A stretch of DNA of 64,000 bases from Oerskovia rustica (GTDB lineage Bacteria; Actinomycetota; Actinomycetes; Actinomycetales; Cellulomonadaceae), in the NCBI RefSeq assembly GCF_014836555.1, contig NZ_JACSQQ010000001.1, positions 48,970 to 112,969 of the forward strand, given 5' to 3'. Shown here piece after piece: positions 32,823 through 40,947 of the stretch. Made by a program: the position numbers and the translations under genes. Positions within the stretch are counted from its first letter, which is position 1, and each line of letters opens with the position of its first letter. A model generated the notes under the pieces. The model was not told the DNA's origin and ran no database searches. It saw only the letters and a list, made by a program, of their open reading frames with translations.

Positions 32823-33007
32823 CGGGGCGTGGCGCCGGTCACGTCCTGTCCGGCCCGGCGTCGGGGCGCCTCTCTCCCCCTGGGCCTCCCCGCGCGAGGG
32901 GAGGTCGACGATTCCCGGTCCGGGTGGCGCCCGACCGGCCGGACATCCCGCACGGGAGCCTTGTCGTGACGGACAATGGTGCGCGAGCGAACGAGGAGCA
33001 CATCACC

Positions 33008-33613
33008 GTGGGAGAACCTGAAGTACGGATCTGCGTGGTCGGCGACGAGCTGAGCGCGGGTGTCGGCGACGCCAAGGGCCTCGGTTGGGCCGGGCGCGTG
33101 GTCGCGCGCACCCGTTTCCCGGGGACGGCGATGGTCTTCCCTCTCGCGATCCCGGGCGAGACGACGACGGCGATGAGCCAGCGCTGGGACGCCGAGACGA
33201 GCAGGCGCTTCGACCACGACCCCGAGGCCGACAACCGGCTCGTCCTCGCCCTGGGTCGTCACGACCTCGACGCGGGCCTGTCGGTGGCGCGGTCGCGGCT
33301 CAACCTGGCGAACGTCCTGGACGTGGCCGAGCACCGTCGTCTGCCCACGTTCGTCGTCGGGCCGCCGCCCGGCCGACCCGAGGACAACGACCGGGTCGCC
33401 GAGCTCTCCGCGGCTTTCGCGGACGTGGCCAACCGGCGCCGCGTGCCGTACGTGGACACGTTCACGCCCCTGGTCACGCACGAGCAGTGGCTCGCGGACC
33501 TCGCGACGAGCGGCGGCGGGTACCCGGGGCAGGCGGGCTACGGGCTCATGGCGTGGCTCGTCCTGCACACGGGCTGGCACGCGTGGCTCGGCCTGCCCGA
33601 CGACGTCGCGTAG
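33008..33613 (+). CDS. SGNH/GDSL-fold protein lacking catalytic residues
   Basis: 201 residues. The fold of the GDSL hydrolases is clear from ICVVGDELSAGVGD at the N-terminus, the glycine-rich LGWAGRVVART, the LVLALGRHDL strand and a C-terminal helix. However, block I reads GDEL (Ser replaced by Glu), block III has GRHD for GxND, and block V has GGGYPGQAGY where DxxHP is expected. All three catalytic blocks are therefore altered, so hydrolysis by the usual Ser-His mechanism is unlikely. GTG 33008 has AGGAG nine bases upstream; GTG 32966 is an alternative. Confidence 0.7.
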   Translation: MGEPEVRICVVGDELSAGVGDAKGLGWAGRVVARTRFPGTAMVFPLAIPGETTTAMSQRWDAETSRRFDHDPEADNRLVLALGRHDLDAGLSVARSRLNLANVLDVAEHRRLPTFVVGPPPGRPEDNDRVAELSAAFADVANRRRVPYVDTFTPLVTHEQWLADLATSGGGYPGQAGYGLMAWLVLHTGWHAWLGLPDDVA

Positions 33614-33787
33614 CCAAGGTGCCCGGCCCGCCGACGGTGACGCTCGTGCGCGCCGAGGGTGACCGGCTCACCCGCCGACGGTGACCACACCCGGGCTGCG
33701 AGTGCGACGACAGCGGCCTGCGGCCACCCCGTCCAGGGGTGACCGCAGGCCGCTGTCGTCGTCTCGGGGCGCAGACCGCCCTGGGTC

Positions 33788-34585
33788 TCAGCCTCGCGAG
33801 ATCGTGAGGTTGCCCGAGACCGTGCTGACCGACACGTACGCGCCGCTCGTGCCCTCCGAGTGGTCCACGGACGTGGTGCGGGACTGCGCGCTGGGGACGG
33901 GGGCGCCGTCGAGCACGACCTTGCCCGTGACCGCGCGCGCCTTGAGGTTGACCCCCGCACCCTCGCTCAGGCGCAGGGTGACGTCGCCCGAGACGGTCTT
34001 GGCGGTCACGAGGGGGGTCGTCTCGCGGGCCTCCACGACCACGTCTCCCGTGACCGTGCTGATCGTGACCCGTCCGAGCGCGCCCTCGGCCTCGACGCGG
34101 CCCGAGGCCGTGCTGACCTTGACGTCACCCTCGTGCGTCGCGACCGCGACGCGTCCCGCGACGGTCTTGACCGAGAGGGGGCCCACGGTGTCGGTCACGG
34201 TGACCGACCCGTCGGCCGTGGTCACGGACACGGGCGCGCGGGTGCCGCTGACGGTCGCCGCGGCGCGGGCGGTCGCGATCTTGACGGGCAGGTGGGCCGG
34301 GAGCACGACCCGGACGGTGGCGGTGTCCTTGTCCTTGAGGCCGCGCAGCCGGTCCACGGCCCCCTCGACGCCGTCGAAGTCGTAGGCGATCTTCAGCTCG
34401 CCCGCGTGCGTCGTGACCCGCAGGGGCCGGGGGCTCACGTCGGTCACGTCGACGGTCGCGCCGGACTCCCGGCTCGGGTCGCTCACGACCTCGACTGCCC
34501 CGTTCGTGAGGCCCACGACGAGCGACGCCACGTCGGCGACCTCGATCTGCTGCGGTGCTGCGATGACCCAGGACTCGGTTCCCAT
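33788..34585 (-). CDS. DUF4097 (toastrack-like beta-helix) protein, downstream copy
   Basis: 265 residues beginning MGTESWVIAAPQQIEV. From about residue 95 it consists of short repeated strands of the type VSVTTADGSVTVTDTVGPL, KTVAGRVAVAT and STVTGDVVVEA, the pattern of DUF4097 beta-solenoid proteins. No signal peptide or membrane helix, so it acts in the cytoplasm. DUF4097 proteins often accompany PadR regulators and envelope-stress membrane proteins; the biochemical role is unknown. ATG behind GAAGGAG. Third gene of the operon, after padR and the paralogous first gene. Confidence 0.83.
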   Translation of the reverse strand: MGTESWVIAAPQQIEVADVASLVVGLTNGAVEVVSDPSRESGATVDVTDVSPRPLRVTTHAGELKIAYDFDGVEGAVDRLRGLKDKDTATVRVVLPAHLPVKIATARAAATVSGTRAPVSVTTADGSVTVTDTVGPLSVKTVAGRVAVATHEGDVKVSTASGRVEAEGALGRVTISTVTGDVVVEARETTPLVTAKTVSGDVTLRLSEGAGVNLKARAVTGKVVLDGAPVPSAQSRTTSVDHSEGTSGAYVSVSTVSGNLTISRG

Positions 34586-34677
34586 GTCGTTCTCCTTCGT
34601 CGTCTGCGTGTCGTGCCGGTCGTCGTGCTGGTTCGGGTCGTGCGGGTCGTGCGGGTCCGCCGCCTCGGGGCCGCCGG

Positions 34678-35280
34678 TCACGGCAGCGTCCCCCGGACCG
34701 CCCGCCGGGCGGAGTCCAGGACCGTGCGCAGCGTCTCGAGCGTCAGCTCGGTGACCGCGCTGCTCGCGTCGGCGCGCCGGAGGTCGGCGCGCCCGTCGTC
34801 GCGGAACCGTTGCACCCTGGCCTCGGCCTCGACGCGGCGGGCGTAGGACTCGCCACGGCGAGGGTCGGGGGTGGCGGCCGGCCGCGGACGGACGCGTGCC
34901 TCCTGGGCCGCGGCCGCGAGCTCGGCGCGCAGGCCCTGCATCGAGCCCTGGATGTCGGCCCGCAGGGCGTGCGCCCGGGTGCGCACGGTCTGGGCGATCC
35001 CGTCCTCGAGCGCCGCGACGTCGGCCCGGCGCGCCGCGACCTCGGCCCGGCCGGCGGGCGTGAGCTCGTACGTCGACTTGCGGGCGCTGTCGCTGCGCCG
35101 CACGAGCCCCTCCCCCTCGAGCCGGGCGAGGCGCGGGTAGATGGTGCCGGCGCTGGGGCGGTAGGTGCCGCCGAAGCGGTCGCTGAGCTCGGTCATGAGC
35201 TCGTAGCCGTGCTTGGGCCCGGACTCGAGCAGCGCGAGGAGGTAGAGCCGGAGCTCCCCGTGGGCGAAGACGGAGGCCAT
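34678..35280 (-). CDS. PadR-family transcriptional regulator
   Basis: 200 residues. The winged-helix PadR domain covers about 9-85 (LRLYLLALLESGPKHGYELM, GTYRPSAGTIYPRLARLEGEGLV), followed by a helical dimerisation/effector part rich in Ala and Arg, longer than in the small PadR-s2 class. The start overlaps the stop of the DUF4097 gene by one base (TGATG). Palindromes at 36302-36319 and 36327-36342 in front of the operon suit autorepression. Confidence 0.92.
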   Translation of the reverse strand: MASVFAHGELRLYLLALLESGPKHGYELMTELSDRFGGTYRPSAGTIYPRLARLEGEGLVRRSDSARKSTYELTPAGRAEVAARRADVAALEDGIAQTVRTRAHALRADIQGSMQGLRAELAAAAQEARVRPRPAATPDPRRGESYARRVEAEARVQRFRDDGRADLRRADASSAVTELTLETLRTVLDSARRAVRGTLP

Positions 35281-36260
35281 CAGCGGTCCGCCGGTCCGTC
35301 CGCGGGTCCGCCGCCGGGCGTGCCTGTCCACGTCGCGCGGCTGTCCGCGGTGCCCCAGGGGGCGCCGTACCCCGGGTACGCGTCGGTCGCGGCGTCGTCG
35401 AACGACCAGGCCGGGGCGCTGTCCGCGACACCGCCGGGTGCGTCCCACGCGACGGCGTCGGCGGGCTCCCCCCGCAGCACCGTGACGTTGCCCGAGACGG
35501 AGTTGACCTGGAGCTTCTTGCCCGGGGTCCCGGACGGACCCGCCTGGCGGTAGGAGCCACCGGGCGTGCCGCGGTGCTCGACGCCGTCGACCACGAGGCG
35601 ACCGCTCACGCAGCGCAGGGTGTAGTCGAGGGCGTCGGGCTCGGGCACGCGCACCAGGACGTCGGCCGAGACGGCGTTGACGTTCATCACGTCGGGCGTC
35701 GCGCCCGAGTCGAGCGTGACGTTCCCGGAGACGGTGTTGAGCTTGACGTCGGTCAGCGCGCCCGAGGCCGTGAGGTCGCCCGACACGGAGTCCATGACGA
35801 GGGTGCCCACGTGGTCGCGGACCGTGACCTCGCCCGAGACCGTGTCGACGCGGACCGCGCCGGTCGTCTGCGTCGTCATGACCGAGCCACCCACGGTGGC
35901 GACGGAGACCTTCGCCTGGGTCCCGGCGACGAGGCCGTCGCCGCGCACGGTCGCGAGCTTGACCCGGACGTGCGCGGGCACGCCGACGTAGACGTCGGCG
36001 CGGTCCTTGCCACGGTAGTTGCGGAACGAGTCGAGGAAGCCCTGCCAGCCGCCCGTGGGCGAGTACCCGACCGTGAGCCGGTCGCCGTCGAGGCGGACCT
36101 CGAGCGGACGGCCCTCGATCGAGTGGACCTCGACGCGGACGCCGGGCTCGTCGTGCACCACGACGTCGATGCGTCCGTTGAGCAGGTTCGCGTCGAGGCG
36201 GGCCACGGGCCCGACGTCGATCGTCTGCGGACCGGTCACGGTCCAGTTCTCGGTCGCCAT
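35280..36260 (-). CDS. DUF4097 protein, first gene of the PadR operon
   Basis: 326 residues, paralogue of the gene two positions downstream: MATENWTVTGPQTIDV matches its N-terminus, then repeats such as RVDTVSGEVTVRDHVG, MDSVSGDLTASG, KLNTVSGNVTLDSG and QVNSVSGNVTVLRG form a beta-solenoid to about residue 275. A Gly/Pro/Ala-rich C-terminal tail of 50 residues is unique to this copy. Cytoplasmic. ATG 36260 behind GAGGAG. It is expressed first from the operator-controlled promoter. Confidence 0.83.
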   Translation of the reverse strand: MATENWTVTGPQTIDVGPVARLDANLLNGRIDVVVHDEPGVRVEVHSIEGRPLEVRLDGDRLTVGYSPTGGWQGFLDSFRNYRGKDRADVYVGVPAHVRVKLATVRGDGLVAGTQAKVSVATVGGSVMTTQTTGAVRVDTVSGEVTVRDHVGTLVMDSVSGDLTASGALTDVKLNTVSGNVTLDSGATPDVMNVNAVSADVLVRVPEPDALDYTLRCVSGRLVVDGVEHRGTPGGSYRQAGPSGTPGKKLQVNSVSGNVTVLRGEPADAVAWDAPGGVADSAPAWSFDDAATDAYPGYGAPWGTADSRATWTGTPGGGPADGPADR

Positions 36261-36301
36261 GTCTCTCCTCGCGTTCCTGCGGTGTCCCGCCCGGTCCCGT
36301 G

Positions 36302-36319
36302 AACGCGATGTATCGCGTT
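36302..36319. promoter_or_regulatory. PadR-type operator O1
   Basis: Perfect palindrome AACGCGAT-GT-ATCGCGTT just downstream of the predicted start of transcription of the DUF4097-PadR operon. Confidence 0.7.
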
Positions 36320-36326
36320 TCTGGTC

Positions 36327-36342
36327 ACACGATATATCGCGT
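36327..36342. promoter_or_regulatory. PadR-type operator O2
   Basis: Palindrome ACACGATATATCGCGT with one mismatched pair, centre 24 bp from O1. It overlaps the predicted -10 element and part of the spacer, as expected for a repressor site. Confidence 0.7.
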
Positions 36343-36357
36343 CTTGGACCAGGACAA
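36329..36357 (-). promoter_or_regulatory. Promoter of the DUF4097-PadR-DUF4097 operon
   Basis: On the minus strand TTGTCC (36357 to 36352), a 17-base spacer and TATCGT (36334 to 36329). Start of transcription would fall near 36322, about 60 bases before the ATG at 36260. Confidence 0.6.
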
Positions 36358-36408
36358 GCCCCAGATGTGGGAACATGGAGCAGACAGAATCCGGCGTGAG
36401 GAGCAATC

Positions 36409-36483
36409 ATGAGCAAGCGCGGACGCAAGCGTCGCAGCCGCAAGGGCAGCGCAGCGAACCACGGCAAGCGCCCCAACGCCTGA
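36409..36483 (+). CDS. Ribosomal protein bL37
   Basis: A 24-residue, strongly basic protein: MSKRGRKRRSRKG, then SAANHGKRPNA. It matches the small large-subunit protein bL37 known from mycobacterial ribosome structures, which has the same length and the same ANHGKRPNA ending. ATG follows GAGGAGCAATC, a strong ribosome-binding site, and a near-ideal terminator lies 49 bases after the stop. Easily missed by gene callers because of its size. Divergent from the PadR operon. Confidence 0.9.
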   Translation: MSKRGRKRRSRKGSAANHGKRPNA

Positions 36484-36532
36484 TCACGAGCCCGCCAGGG
36501 CCGCGATCACGCGCCCTGCGGGCGAGTGCGAC

Positions 36533-36572
36533 GAAAGGGCCCGTCCTCACCTCGGTGAGGACGGGCCCTTTC
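36533..36572. terminator. Strong bidirectional terminator
   Basis: Perfect 18-bp stem (36533-36550 with 36555-36572) with tetraloop CTCG. The arms end GAAAGGG and CCCTTTC, giving a short T-run on either strand, so it serves bL37 on the plus and rsrA on the minus strand. Confidence 0.9.
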
Positions 36573-36690
36573 GACGTTCTCGGCGGCGGCACCCTCGCGG
36601 GGGTGCGGCCCGGCCGCGCCGCCTCGCCGAGAAGGCGGCCGACACGGAAGCGCAGAGGTGCCCGACGGCGTCACGCCCCCGGGCGGCGCG

Positions 36691-37014
36691 TCAGATGCCC
36701 TCGATGACCGTCGTCGTACGCAGTACGGTGAACTGCGCCTGGATGCGCAGCCGGAGCTCCACGGGAGCCTGCTCGTGGCACGAGCGGCGCACGAGCTGCT
36801 TGACCAGCTCCTCGGCGCTCAGCTCGGCCAGGCACGGCGAGCAGTGCGCGACGTGCGCGCGCATGCGCACCTCGTCGTCGGAGGTCATCTCCGAGTCGAG
36901 GTACTCGTACAGGTGCTTGAGCGCGTGCTCGCACTCGGTCTCGCCCTCGGTCGAGTGGGGGATCGGCACGATGACCTCGTCCTGCGCCTCCGTGCCCACG
37001 TTCTGCTGACTCAC
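36691..37014 (-). CDS. rsrA: Redox-sensing zinc anti-sigma factor (RsrA/RshA type)
   Basis: 107 residues. The zinc motif HVAHCSPC supplies H54, C58 and C61, and C28 lies exactly 26 residues before H54, reproducing the C11/H37/C41/C44 spacing of Streptomyces RsrA; C79 matches C62. By that analogy the trigger disulphide would form between C28 and C61 or C58, releasing zinc and SigR under thiol oxidation. GTG start sharing GTGA with the sigR stop. Cytoplasmic partner of the sigma factor upstream. Confidence 0.93.
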
Positions 37015-37679
37015 GACTCACCTCCGGGGGTCTTGGCCCCCACCAGTCCTCGGTCCTTTGCGTAGTCGCTCAGGAGATCACGCAGCTGGTGCCGACCGCG
37101 GTGGAGCCGCGACATCACGGTCCCGATCGGCGTGCCCATGATCTCGGCGATCTCCTTGTACGGGAAGCCCTCGACGTCCGCGTAGTACACGGCCATCCGG
37201 CGGTCCTCCGGCAGCTCCTGGAGAGCCTTCTTCACGTCGGAGTCCGGGAGCCGGTCCAACGCCTCGGCCTCGGCCGAGCGCAACCCCTGCGACGTGTGCG
37301 ACGCCGCGCGGTGGATCTGCCAGTCCTCGACGTCCTCCGCCGCGGACTGCAGCGGCTCGCGCTGCTTCTTGCGGTAGTTGTTGATGAACGTGTTGGTGAG
37401 GATCCGGTAGAGCCACGCCTTGAGGTTGGTGTCCGGGCGGTACTGGTGGAACGCGGCGAACGCCTTGGTGAACGTCTCCTGGACCAGGTCCTCCGCGTCG
37501 GTCGGGTTGCGCGTCAGGCGCAGCGCCGCCGAGTAGAGCTGGTCGAGGTACACCAGCGCGTCGCGCTCGAAGCGCGCCGAACGGGCCGCGTCGTCCTCCG
37601 TGGAGGGAGCCCGGTTGGTGTCCTCGGCGTCATCGGCGCCCGAGAGGTCGCCTGCGCTGCTGCTGATCTGGTCCGTCAT
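37011..37679 (-). CDS. sigR: ECF sigma factor SigR/SigH
   Basis: 222 residues from ATG 37679 ([12 protein letters not shown]). Sigma region 2 (about 45-115: [56 protein letters not shown]) and region 4 (about 155-210: [41 protein letters not shown]). It drives the thiol-oxidative stress response (thioredoxin, mycothiol genes). The frame stays open upstream, with an in-frame GTG at 37817 that would add 46 residues and lies next to a perfect SigR promoter, so an extended isoform like Streptomyces SigR-prime is likely. Confidence 0.94.
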
Positions 37680-37687
37680 CGACAACG

Positions 37688-37693
37688 AGCCTA
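37688..37693 (-). promoter_or_regulatory. -10 element for the short SigR transcript
   Basis: TAGGCT on the minus strand, eight bases before ATG 37679, suggesting a constitutive, nearly leaderless transcript for the short form. AGGAGG just upstream is too far (16 bases) to be a good ribosome-binding site. Confidence 0.45.
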
Positions 37694-37826
37694 GTCCTCC
37701 TGCCGGTCGGGTGTCCGCCGAGAGCGCAGAAGGTGCGACCGCGCCGAACGGCACGACCTCGAGGCTCGGTGCGGCGGGGGCGCTCACGGCCGCTTCCGCT
37801 TCCAGTACACATGTCACGCTCAGCAC

Positions 37827-37852
37827 AACCGTCGGGTGCGCCGTGTCATTCC
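37827..37852 (-). promoter_or_regulatory. SigR-dependent autoregulatory promoter
   Basis: GGAAT (37852 to 37848), exactly 18 bases, then GTT (37829 to 37827), the SigR/SigH consensus. It lies about 150-170 bases before the short sigR start and ten bases before the in-frame GTG 37817. Confidence 0.85.
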
Positions 37853-37959
37853 CGCAGGGGCCGGATCCCGCGGTTCGCACGCCTCCCGGGGCGGGCAGAG
37901 GCAAGCCTGTGCTCGGTGAGGACAGGCAACCATCGGGTGTGCTCGGGCCCGATCCTCGC

Positions 37960-37965
37960 TAGCGT
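37960..37965 (+). promoter_or_regulatory. -10 element TAGCGT, leaderless start of ferritin
   Basis: TAGCGT ends six bases before the ATG at 37972; no Shine-Dalgarno site is present. Confidence 0.5.
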
Positions 37966-37971
37966 GACCGC

Positions 37972-38517
37972 ATGACGACCACGACTCCCGACTCCCGGTT
38001 CCGCACCCTCCTGCGTGAGCAGGTCGGACACGAGCTCGACGCCCACCAGCAGTACATCGCGATCGCCGTGTGGTTCGACTCGCACGACCTGCCCCAGCTC
38101 GCCGCGCACTTCTACCGCCAGTCGGTCGAGGAGCGCAACCACGCCATGATGATCGTGCAGTACCACCTCGACCGTGACCTGGAGATCTCGATCCCCGGCA
38201 CGGGCGCGGTGCGCAACGACTTCGACTCGGTGCTCGAGCCCCTCCAGCTCGCGCTCGACCAGGAGAAGCAGGTCACCGACCAGATCGAGGCCATCTTCCG
38301 CGCGGCCCGCGAGGAGGGCGACGCCCTGGGCGAGCAGTTCCTCCTGTGGTTCCTCAAGGAGCAGGTCGAGGAGGTCGCGTCGGCCACGACGCTGTTGACC
38401 GTCGCCCGCCGCGCCGGCGAGAACCTGTTCGACCTCGAGAACTACGTGGCCCGCGAGACCATCGGAGACGGCGGAGAGTCCGCGGACGCCCCCGAGGCTG
38501 CCGGCGGCGCGCTCTGA
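37972..38517 (+). CDS. Ferritin
   Basis: 181 residues, four-helix bundle that oxidises and stores iron as a 24-mer. Ferroxidase ligands: E21 in VGHELDAHQQY, E54 and H57 in SVEERNHAMM, and the third-helix EKQVTDQIEAIF with the later glutamine/glutamate in FLLWFLKEQVEEV. No methionine haem ligand of the bacterioferritin type at the usual place, so non-haem ferritin is preferred. A short acidic, Ala/Gly-rich tail follows the bundle. It is divergent from sigR. Confidence 0.93.
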   Translation: MTTTTPDSRFRTLLREQVGHELDAHQQYIAIAVWFDSHDLPQLAAHFYRQSVEERNHAMMIVQYHLDRDLEISIPGTGAVRNDFDSVLEPLQLALDQEKQVTDQIEAIFRAAREEGDALGEQFLLWFLKEQVEEVASATTLLTVARRAGENLFDLENYVARETIGDGGESADAPEAAGGAL

Positions 38518-38531
38518 CCTGACGAGCCCAC

Positions 38532-38562
38532 GGGCGGAGCCGGGCAGGTCCCGGCTCCGCCC
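38532..38562 (+). terminator. Terminator after ferritin
   Basis: Perfect 13-bp stem GGGCGGAGCCGGG (38532-38544) with 38550-38562, loop CAGGT, 14 bases after the stop; no T-run. The rest of the 283-base gap to the next gene shows nothing. Confidence 0.75.
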
Positions 38563-38800
38563 TCGCCGTGCCTGCGCCCGTGCCGGCCTCCGGACCTTCC
38601 CGCCCGACGGCGCCGCTCACCCGGGCGCGCGCGTCGCCCGCTCCTGGATCACCCCGCTCCCCCGGCGCGCGTCGCCCCGAGGGTGCACGCCCGGTGGCAT
38701 GCTGAGCAGCGATGGGACAGGCTGGGTCGACCGGGGGCGGCACCGGCGTCCCGGTGTCCGCCGCTCTCACCGGTACCCGTTCGACGAAGGAGACCCACCG

Positions 38801-39415
38801 ATGCTGCTGCGTCACGTCGCGAGGCCCATGCTGGCCTCCTGGTTCATCTACGACGGCGTGCAGGCCGCCCTCAAGCCCGCGGAGCACGTGCGCGCAGCCC
38901 GACGGGGCGTGAGCCTCGTCGGTCAGCAGCTCGGCGTCGAGGAGCCGCTCAGCGAGAAGCAGGTCTCGGCGCTGGTCCGGGCTCACGGCGCGGCGACCGC
39001 GGTCGCCGGTCTCTTCCTCGCGGTCGGCAAGGCGCCCCGGACCGCCGCCCTCACGCTCGCGGCCCTGAGCGTCCCCCTCGCGGTCGTCAACCAGCCCTTC
39101 ACCCCGAGCGACGTGCCTCGCGACGTGCGCGCCCGCAAGTTCGTGGGCAACCTCGGCGCGATCGGTGCGGCACTCATCGCCGGGGCCGACTACGAGGGGC
39201 GCCCCGGTGTCCGCTGGCGCGTCGACCGTGCACGCAAGGACCTCGACCTGGCCAAGAACGCCAAGCACCAGGTCGACGCGGCCAAGCACAAGGTCGAGTC
39301 CGCGACCGACAAGGCCACGCACGCCGTGACGGCGAGCGCCCGCACCGCGACCCGCACAGCACGTCGCGCCGCGAGCTCGGCGGCCGGGACCGTCAAGGGC
39401 GCCGTCTCGCACTGA
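38801..39415 (+). CDS. DoxX-like membrane protein with long basic tail
   Basis: 204 residues. The first part (VARPMLASWFIYDGVQAALKP, a loop ending VRAHGAATAVAGLFLAVGK, AALTLAALSVPLAVVN and KFVGNLGAIGAALIAGAD) has the four hydrophobic segments of the DoxX family. From about residue 145 a Lys/Ala/Arg-rich helical tail (KNAKHQVDAAKHKVESATDK) follows, resembling histone- or apolipoprotein-like repeats and likely cytoplasmic. ATG behind AAGGAG. DoxX proteins take part in membrane redox or thiol chemistry, which would fit the nearby sigR locus, but that is only inference. Confidence 0.78.
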   Translation: MLLRHVARPMLASWFIYDGVQAALKPAEHVRAARRGVSLVGQQLGVEEPLSEKQVSALVRAHGAATAVAGLFLAVGKAPRTAALTLAALSVPLAVVNQPFTPSDVPRDVRARKFVGNLGAIGAALIAGADYEGRPGVRWRVDRARKDLDLAKNAKHQVDAAKHKVESATDKATHAVTASARTATRTARRAASSAAGTVKGAVSH

Positions 39416-39590
39416 GGACCACAGGCACCGCCGGCCCGGGAGGCCCGCCCCGGCTTCCTCGCACGACCGCCTCCGGCCCACCGACGGTTCGCTCGCCGCG
39501 GCCCGACCACGGCAGGTGAGCGACGCCGTCGGGCCGTGGACGGGCCCGGCCGAGGACCGGACCGAAGCCCTCCCCCGAAGCCCCGTGCCA

Positions 39591-39596
39591 TAACCT
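39591..39596 (+). promoter_or_regulatory. -10 element TAACCT, leaderless start of aroA
   Basis: TAACCT ends seven bases before the GTG at 39604, with no ribosome-binding site between. Confidence 0.45.
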
Positions 39597-39603
39597 GGGG
39601 CAT

Positions 39604-40947
39604 GTGACCAGCGACCTTCCTGCCGCCCGCCCCGACGAGACCACCCCCGCGCTGCCGGCGTGGCCCGCGCCCAGCCAGACCGGCGCGACCGCCGGCGCCC
39701 CGCTCGACGCGACCGTCGCGGTCCCAGGCTCCAAGTCGCTCACCAACCGCCTCCTCGTGCTCGCGGCCCTCGCCGACGGGCCGGGCGTGCTGCGCGGCGC
39801 GCTGCGCAGCCGCGACACCGACCTCATGGCCGCTGCGCTGCGCGACCTGGGCGTGGGCATCACCGAGGGTGAGGACCCGAGCGAGCTGCACGTGACGCCC
39901 GGCGCGCTGCGCGGCCCCGCCGAGATCGACTGCGGTCTCGCGGGCACCGTCATGCGCTTCGTCCCCGCGGTCGCAGCCCTCGCCGACGGCACCGTGCGGT
40001 TCGACGGCGACGAGGGCGCACGCGTGCGCCCCATGGGCCCCGTGCTCGACGCGCTGCGCGACCTGGGCGTGCCCGTCGAGGGCAAGGACACCCTGCCGTT
40101 CACGATCACGGGACGCGGCGCGGTGCGCGGCGGGCACGTCGACGTCGACGCGTCGGGGTCGAGCCAGTTCGTCTCGGGCCTGCTGCTCGCCGCCGCGCGC
40201 TTCGAGCAGGGCGTCACGCTGCGCCACACGGGCCCGACGCTGCCGAGCGTGCCCCACATCGACATGACGGTCGAGGTCCTGCGCGAGGTCGGCGTCCAGG
40301 TCGACGACTCGCGCCCCACGATCTGGACCGTCTCCCCCGGGCCGATCGCCGCGCGCGACGTGTACGTCGAGCCCGACCTCTCGAACGCCGGGCCGTTCCT
40401 CGCCGCGGCCCTCGTGGTGGGCGGCACGGTGCGCGTCCCGGGCTGGCCCGCCGTGACGACCCAGCCGGGCGCCATGATGGCCGAGCTCCTCACCGCGATG
40501 GGCGGCCGCGCCGAGCTGACCGACGGCGTCATGGCCGTGACCGGGACGGGCGAGGTCCGCGGGATCGACGTCGACCTCCACGAGGCCGGCGAGCTCGCCC
40601 CGACCATCGCGGCCCTCGCCGCGATCGCCGACTCCCCCAGCCGCCTGCGCGGCATCGCGCACCTGCGCGGCCACGAGACCGACCGCCTGGCCGCGCTCGC
40701 GACCGAGATCACGCGCCTCGGCGGGCAGGCCGAGCAGACGCACGACGGCCTCGTCATCACCCCGCGCCCGCTGCACGGCGCCACGTTCCGCACGTACCAC
40801 GACCACCGCATGGCGACCTCGGGCGCCCTGATCGGGCTGCGCGTTCCCGGCGTCCTCGTGGAGGACGTCGAGACGACCGCCAAGACCCTGCCCGGGTTCA
40901 CCACCATGTGGGACCGCATGCTGAGCGCCGCGGGATCGGCGAGCTGA
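39604..40947 (+). CDS. aroA: 3-Phosphoshikimate 1-carboxyvinyltransferase (EPSP synthase)
   Basis: Couples shikimate-3-phosphate with phosphoenolpyruvate in the chorismate pathway. 447 residues with an N-terminal extension of about 30. Motifs: [16 protein letters not shown] (SKS and R), [32 protein letters not shown], the shikimate site [26 protein letters not shown] with the catalytic aspartate, and [11 protein letters not shown] near the end. The LAGTVMRF loop has alanine at the position that, in class I enzymes, influences glyphosate binding. GTG start; the stop overlaps rsgA by one base. Confidence 0.96.

Follow-up and report, generated by a model that had tools for sequence, protein, structure and literature searches.

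The 64,000-nucleotide stretch of Oerskovia rustica DNA analysed here (the window) carries, at positions 36409-36483 of its plus strand, a 24-codon open reading frame that, judged from its sequence, almost certainly encodes the ribosomal protein bL37, of which the genome has a single copy. The gene adds one member to an established family and is an ordinary, expected bL37 ortholog. We further hypothesize, tentatively and with slightly more doubt than belief, that an atypical extended -10 of the form TGN-GANNNT (with G at position -12), specific to this gene, drives those bL37 genes that have stayed next to sigR and is kept in at least three families and at least two orders at varying distances from the start codon, so that the supply of bL37 would be separately regulated; and, alongside this, that bL37 has been lost in a sister family, with no replacement by uL30.

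The bL37 gene and its product

The first-pass annotation of this DNA had described a 24-codon gene with an ATG and a GAGGAG site, and both are present: the frame runs from ATG over 24 codons to a TGA stop (product MSKRGRKRRSRKGSAANHGKRPNA), and the ribosome-binding site, GAGGAG, lies on the plus strand at 36398-36403, 5 bases 5' of the ATG; relatives have G/A-rich sites at about the same place. The peptide is laid out as a short basic N-terminal helix followed by the C-terminal tail ANHGKRPN, and the whole 4.35-Mb genome encodes bL37 at one place. Its identification as bL37 was borne out: the product scores 51.6 bits against the NCBIfam model NF047428 (50S ribosomal protein bL37, equivalog; curated cut-off 30, E 7.5e-14), the alignment covering model positions 1-24 of 24, and aligns end to end with mycobacterial and C. 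acnes ribosome chains. In a PDB search five distinct sequences aligned to the product, the best with E 3.7e-7 over residues 1-24; four are named as ribosomal (some varyingly, e.g. THX or eL31) and one merely as 'peptide', and the bL37 chains aligned over their full length include those of 5o60, 7kgb and 8crx. A Pfam search with the product gave 0 matches. All six residues that are invariant in a profile of 30 diverse bL37 sequences (profile A1: K3, A16, N17, H18, G19 and P22) are present in the product, the invariance of ANHG being partly built in, since the rows were found with an ANH/SNH-type filter. The host is actinobacterial, as expected for a member of the bL37 family.

A frame this short could in principle be a chance basic ORF in GC-rich DNA and no gene at all, and 78 ORFs of at least 22 amino acids overlap positions 33000-40500, many of them necessarily spurious. 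We regard this as highly improbable for 36409-36483, given its E of 7.5e-14 to a curated 24-position model, the presence of bL37 in 61 of 61 genomes of the family, the conservation of an upstream element, and an excess of synonymous codon change: with the window as reference, the family's bL37 sequences show 242 synonymous versus 112 non-synonymous codon differences, where random single codon changes would be 24% synonymous (57 sequences including the window's, from 60 loci, three with a one-residue-shorter product having been dropped). What the sequence data show directly is that the ORF matches the family, that its protein is under selection, that it is single-copy and that it keeps a conserved place convergent with sigR-rsrA.

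Mycobacterial bL37 (PDB 5o60, 7kgb and others) resembles the product in its 24 residues, its ANHGKRPN tail and its end-to-end alignment, but the 5o60 sequence is identical at 19 of 24 residues, three of the five substitutions lying in the middle. Some loci of family f7 encode this 5o60 sequence; unlike the window, the 14 loci fetched from that family have no PadR or DUF4097 gene within the flanks. C. acnes bL37 (8crx) also has 24 residues and the same tail, but differs in its N-terminal half (MGKTGRKRRARRKKG); one relative, L021 of family f9, encodes a peptide identical to that of 8crx and carries the upstream element described below in its strict form.

For C. acnes bL37 an action outside the ribosome has been proposed, disk assays reported in PMC10085706 having shown that bL37 inhibits both S. 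epidermidis and S. aureus in their growth, so the peptide of the window might likewise act mainly elsewhere, for example as an antimicrobial. This seems very unlikely: inspection by eye shows no hydrophobic segment that could serve export, the named neighbour genes are not transport genes, and dozens of PDB entries list identical or near-identical chains, which mostly bear ribosomal names.

A conserved promoter-like element upstream of bL37

At 36366-36378 on the plus strand lies a promoter-like element, TGTGGGAACATGG, which we read as an extended -10 (TGG at 36368-36370 followed by GAACAT at 36371-36376), with transcription expected to start at about 36383. Upstream regions of the family contain T[AG]TGGGA in 54 of 60 loci (base-shuffle expectation 1.0) and TGTGGGANNAT in 48 of 60 (expectation 0.01), these loci representing all of the 61 genomes except G456, which was not fetched; the element lies 43-123 nt from the bL37 start codon. 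Conservation extends beyond the searched string, with an A (51 of 54 regions) and a T (54 of 54) at its end and then a G-rich pair. In this alignment (54 distinct regions out of 57, three of the 57 from other families), the sole other column above threshold is T-rich and lies 19 bases 5' of the element, and no clear -35 paired with the element was found.

The strict form, TGTGGGANNATRG, occurs once in the window's genome, 5' of bL37. Across the 61 family genomes it occurs 54 times, versus 18 for the reversed control pattern; because 39 of the 54 sit just 5' of bL37 (by eye; 15 lie elsewhere), the strict-form element is no general promoter class. Within the window, TGNGANNNT stands upstream of one of 23 roughly called genes that have intergenic upstream DNA.

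Family f9 has T[AG]TGGGA in only 6 of 30 loci and shows looser versions, such as TGCGACAATGG and TGAGACGATGG, for which reason all versions are read as an extended -10, TGN-GANNNT. Searched for 15-125 nt upstream of bL37, this pattern is found in 58 of 60 loci of the window's family f1 (dinucleotide-shuffle mean 3.9) and 25 of 30 of f9 (mean 2.3). Since the pattern was chosen after f1 and f9 had been viewed, fairer tests are f7, with 8 of 13 loci (mean 0.6), and the mixed set of f2, f3, f4 and f8, with 4 of 6 together (mean 0.3). In f6 (1 of 8, mean 0.6) the pattern is no commoner than chance would give, and the same holds for other classes (2 of 38, mean 1.7). All these counts leave out L006 and L031, and related loci in them are not independent. 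At -12 a promoter usually has T; the canonical TGN-TANNNT occurs in none of the first 109 loci, which, with fewer than two expected, amounts to no strong depletion. A consensus promoter scan found no sigma-70-type promoter here.

Sigma-R control of bL37 was considered and rejected. A sigma-R promoter has a -35 GGAAT and, a fixed distance from it, a -10 GTT, an arrangement not seen in the conserved element, TGTGGGANNAT. The TGTGGGA block bears a faint likeness to an ECF -35, but the next two bases vary and no fixed -10 follows. The element also resembles the 5S rRNA sequence GTGTGGGAGAGTAGG, and a constant A versus G speaks against its being a mimic of it.

The conserved element points to regulation of bL37. 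If the extended -10 reading is true, bL37 would be transcribed alone from 36366-36378 and regulated separately, for instance by growth rate or the stringent response, via a -12 base that weakens melting. The text of open-access papers yielded no published account of the element or of bL37 regulation, and those open-access papers listed as containing its letter strings are unrelated by title.

Genomic neighbourhood

The gene lies, as had been claimed, between a PadR operon and sigR-rsrA. Upstream on the minus strand are a DUF4097 (Toastrack) gene at 35280-36260 (PF13349, 40 bits, cut-off 22.9), the first gene of the divergent PadR operon; a PadR-family regulator at 34678-35448 (PF03551, 69 bits, cut-off 27); and a second DUF4097 gene. 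Downstream, and convergent with bL37, are rsrA at 36691-37014 on the minus strand, for a mycothiol-system anti-sigma-R factor (TIGR03988, 80.3 bits, cut-off 62.5), and a sigR/sigH-type sigma factor gene at 37011-37904 on the same strand (TIGR02947, 345.6 bits, cut-off 251.55). For both the regulator and the sigma factor the coordinates are those of the longest frame, the true start probably being internal.

Between bL37 and rsrA, at 36532-36573, a perfect stem with a 4-base loop is indeed present, 19 bp long where 18 bp had been claimed, and the predicted fold of 36484-36590 has an energy of -79 kcal/mol (z -7.55 versus shuffles). A simple terminator scan returned 0 terminators for bL37, none with a U tail; the hairpin is absent from that scan because no T-run follows the stem, its U's lying inside. 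Because it sits between convergent genes, we take it as a probable two-way terminator, which would end the transcripts of both bL37 (plus strand) and rsrA (minus strand).

The proposal that this placement could anchor annotation in the family stood on one side and failed on the other. Of 20 family loci, 19 have SigR near bL37 and encoded on the other strand, whereas a PadR gene turned up in 6 and a DUF4097 gene in 8 (1.5-kb flanks; some PadR genes may be farther off). Counts of this kind rest on fetched flanks of mostly 1.5-3 kb. Among other families of the class, 19 of 30 loci have SigR nearby in this opposed orientation. The misses in the two sets include L006, at a contig end, G139, where SigR lies about 2.7 kb off (L070), eight loci of f6 and one second copy (L031). 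For family f9 the figure is 28 of 30 loci with SigR nearby, 22 of them with it on the opposite strand, and for other classes 0 of 38. The sigR-rsrA side is accordingly a usable landmark in the family. Annotations readily omit ribosomal proteins this small; NCBIfam now holds a bL37 model, NF047428.

Two palindromic sites around CGATRTATCGCG, at 36303-36318 and 36327-36342, lie between the PadR operon and bL37 and end 23 bases 5' of the promoter-like element. They account for 4 matches on both strands versus 0.28 expected, are seen in several relatives, and are probable PadR operators.

Proposed role in the ribosome

PMC5876184 describes bL37 as a helix of about 13 residues plus a loop, in a pocket that the 23S helices H39, H40, H72 and H89 form together with the H41/H42 joint, and in PMC10085706 C. 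acnes bL37 is proposed to link H39, H40, H72, H89 and the 5S rRNA tip; its exact function remains to be elucidated, according to PMC6133939. The window's bL37 would be made and built into O. rustica ribosomes, where, going by the position and contacts in published structures, it would sit in the 50S cleft of 23S H39, H40, H72 and H89 and the 5S rRNA tip, and would brace H89 behind the peptidyl transferase centre; overall it probably braces the peptidyl transferase region. bL37 seems dispensable in mycobacteria, because a knock-out with bS22 was obtained, which left the mycobacteria more antibiotic-sensitive (a study cited in PMC11446355).

Two known systems touch the same position. In Borreliella burgdorferi an N-terminal extension of uL30 fills the bL37 pocket and is proposed, in PMC10618245, as the evolutionary source of bL37; in contrast to the window, the pocket is there filled by part of uL30 and not by the product of a separate gene. 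The uL30 of the window's genome shows no such extension beyond an ATG adjoining the model start (start judged by eye). CLaSP of Coxiella burnetii is likewise a small ribosomal protein overlapping the bL37 position, but according to PMC13392368 it is not substantially identical to bL37 in sequence and shares no structure with it.

Distribution among genomes

All 61 genomes drawn from the window's family have one bL37 match each, and bL37 is found in 57 of 61 drawn from f9. Within the phylum it is not universal: over 396 genomes, NF047428 matches 67 at E 0.001 (50 above the cut-off) and profile A1 matches 82 at E 0.01, namely 31 of the 38 genomes that belong to the window's class and 51 of the 358 that do not. 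Absences outside the well-sampled families mean little, because short divergent members may be missed.

That bL37 is confined to actinobacteria fits the genomes of the phylum, the 14 named control genomes, among which one, C. glutamicum, matches NF047428, and the public-contig matches listed, save for a few titles. A pattern scan of public contigs found at least 120 stretches, and among the matches listed 120 of 120 encode bL37-like peptides; because the pattern asked for a glycine at the second residue past PN, it covers only forms with a longer C terminus. Of 80 titles from these at least 120 matches, 77 are actinobacterial, two read 'Acidobacteria' (L090 and L091) and one 'Saccharibacteria' (L136). 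The titles of L090 and L136 are probably wrong, the former because its peptide is one common in a family within the window's phylum. L091 is a contig titled Acidobacteria with a bL37-like peptide.

A tblastn search of the peptide against plasmids and phages gave 0 matches; such blanks mean little, because tblastn also missed a place in Nocardia found by DNA search, probably owing to its low-complexity filter. The Nocardia record in question has two features only in its table.

Some genomes hold two bL37-like genes or matches (G377, G334 and G182; loci L004 and L031, L060 and L067); in G377 the second copy has 38 residues and a basic C-terminal tail. Most loci of family f6 (L051, L059-L062 and L068) encode a diverged form of bL37 ending in RPQS or RPQC. 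These forms fall mostly below the NCBIfam cut-off and have no SigR in their flanks, and the current NF047428 model may miss such forms.

Apparent loss in a sister family

Family f5 belongs to the same order as the window. bL37 was found in 0 of its 5 genomes in the phylum draw, and a credible bL37 in 0 of 40 genomes drawn from the family, the sole match (uncounted) being an 11-residue fragment, E 0.009, inside a 340-residue frame. The SigR loci of five f5 genomes have no bL37-like ORF within about 1.5 kb; in two of them (L211 and L214) there are short frames rich in arginine that do not resemble bL37. From these sequence surveys, the family has apparently lost the gene, and no published account of bL37 loss in one family was found in the text of open-access papers. 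Ribosomes with and without bL37 within one order would offer a natural experiment on its role beside the peptidyl transferase centre.

Because bL37 is proposed to derive from a longer uL30 (PMC10618245), uL30 in f5 should be longer if it were the substitute. An extension of this kind was rejected: in 14 of 14 genomes uL30 is no longer, measuring 57 residues from the model start, and its start codon probably lies 2-4 residues ahead of that point (starts judged by eye, the frames often being open upstream).

The 23S rRNAs of 10 f5 and 8 bL37-bearing genomes (of 10 bL37-bearing loci, L318 and L321 were excluded because they turned out to be something other than 23S) show 61 near-fixed differences. 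The approximate bL37 pocket, 180 nt of 23S with helix limits that we take to define it, holds 5 of the 61 versus 3.8 expected (P 0.33), and none lies in H89. Four of the five pocket differences fall in H39-H40 (45 nt; 0.9 expected), a concentration seen afterwards that could be a lead on a change in the rRNA pocket. The 5S matches are 117 nt long in all 22 compared.
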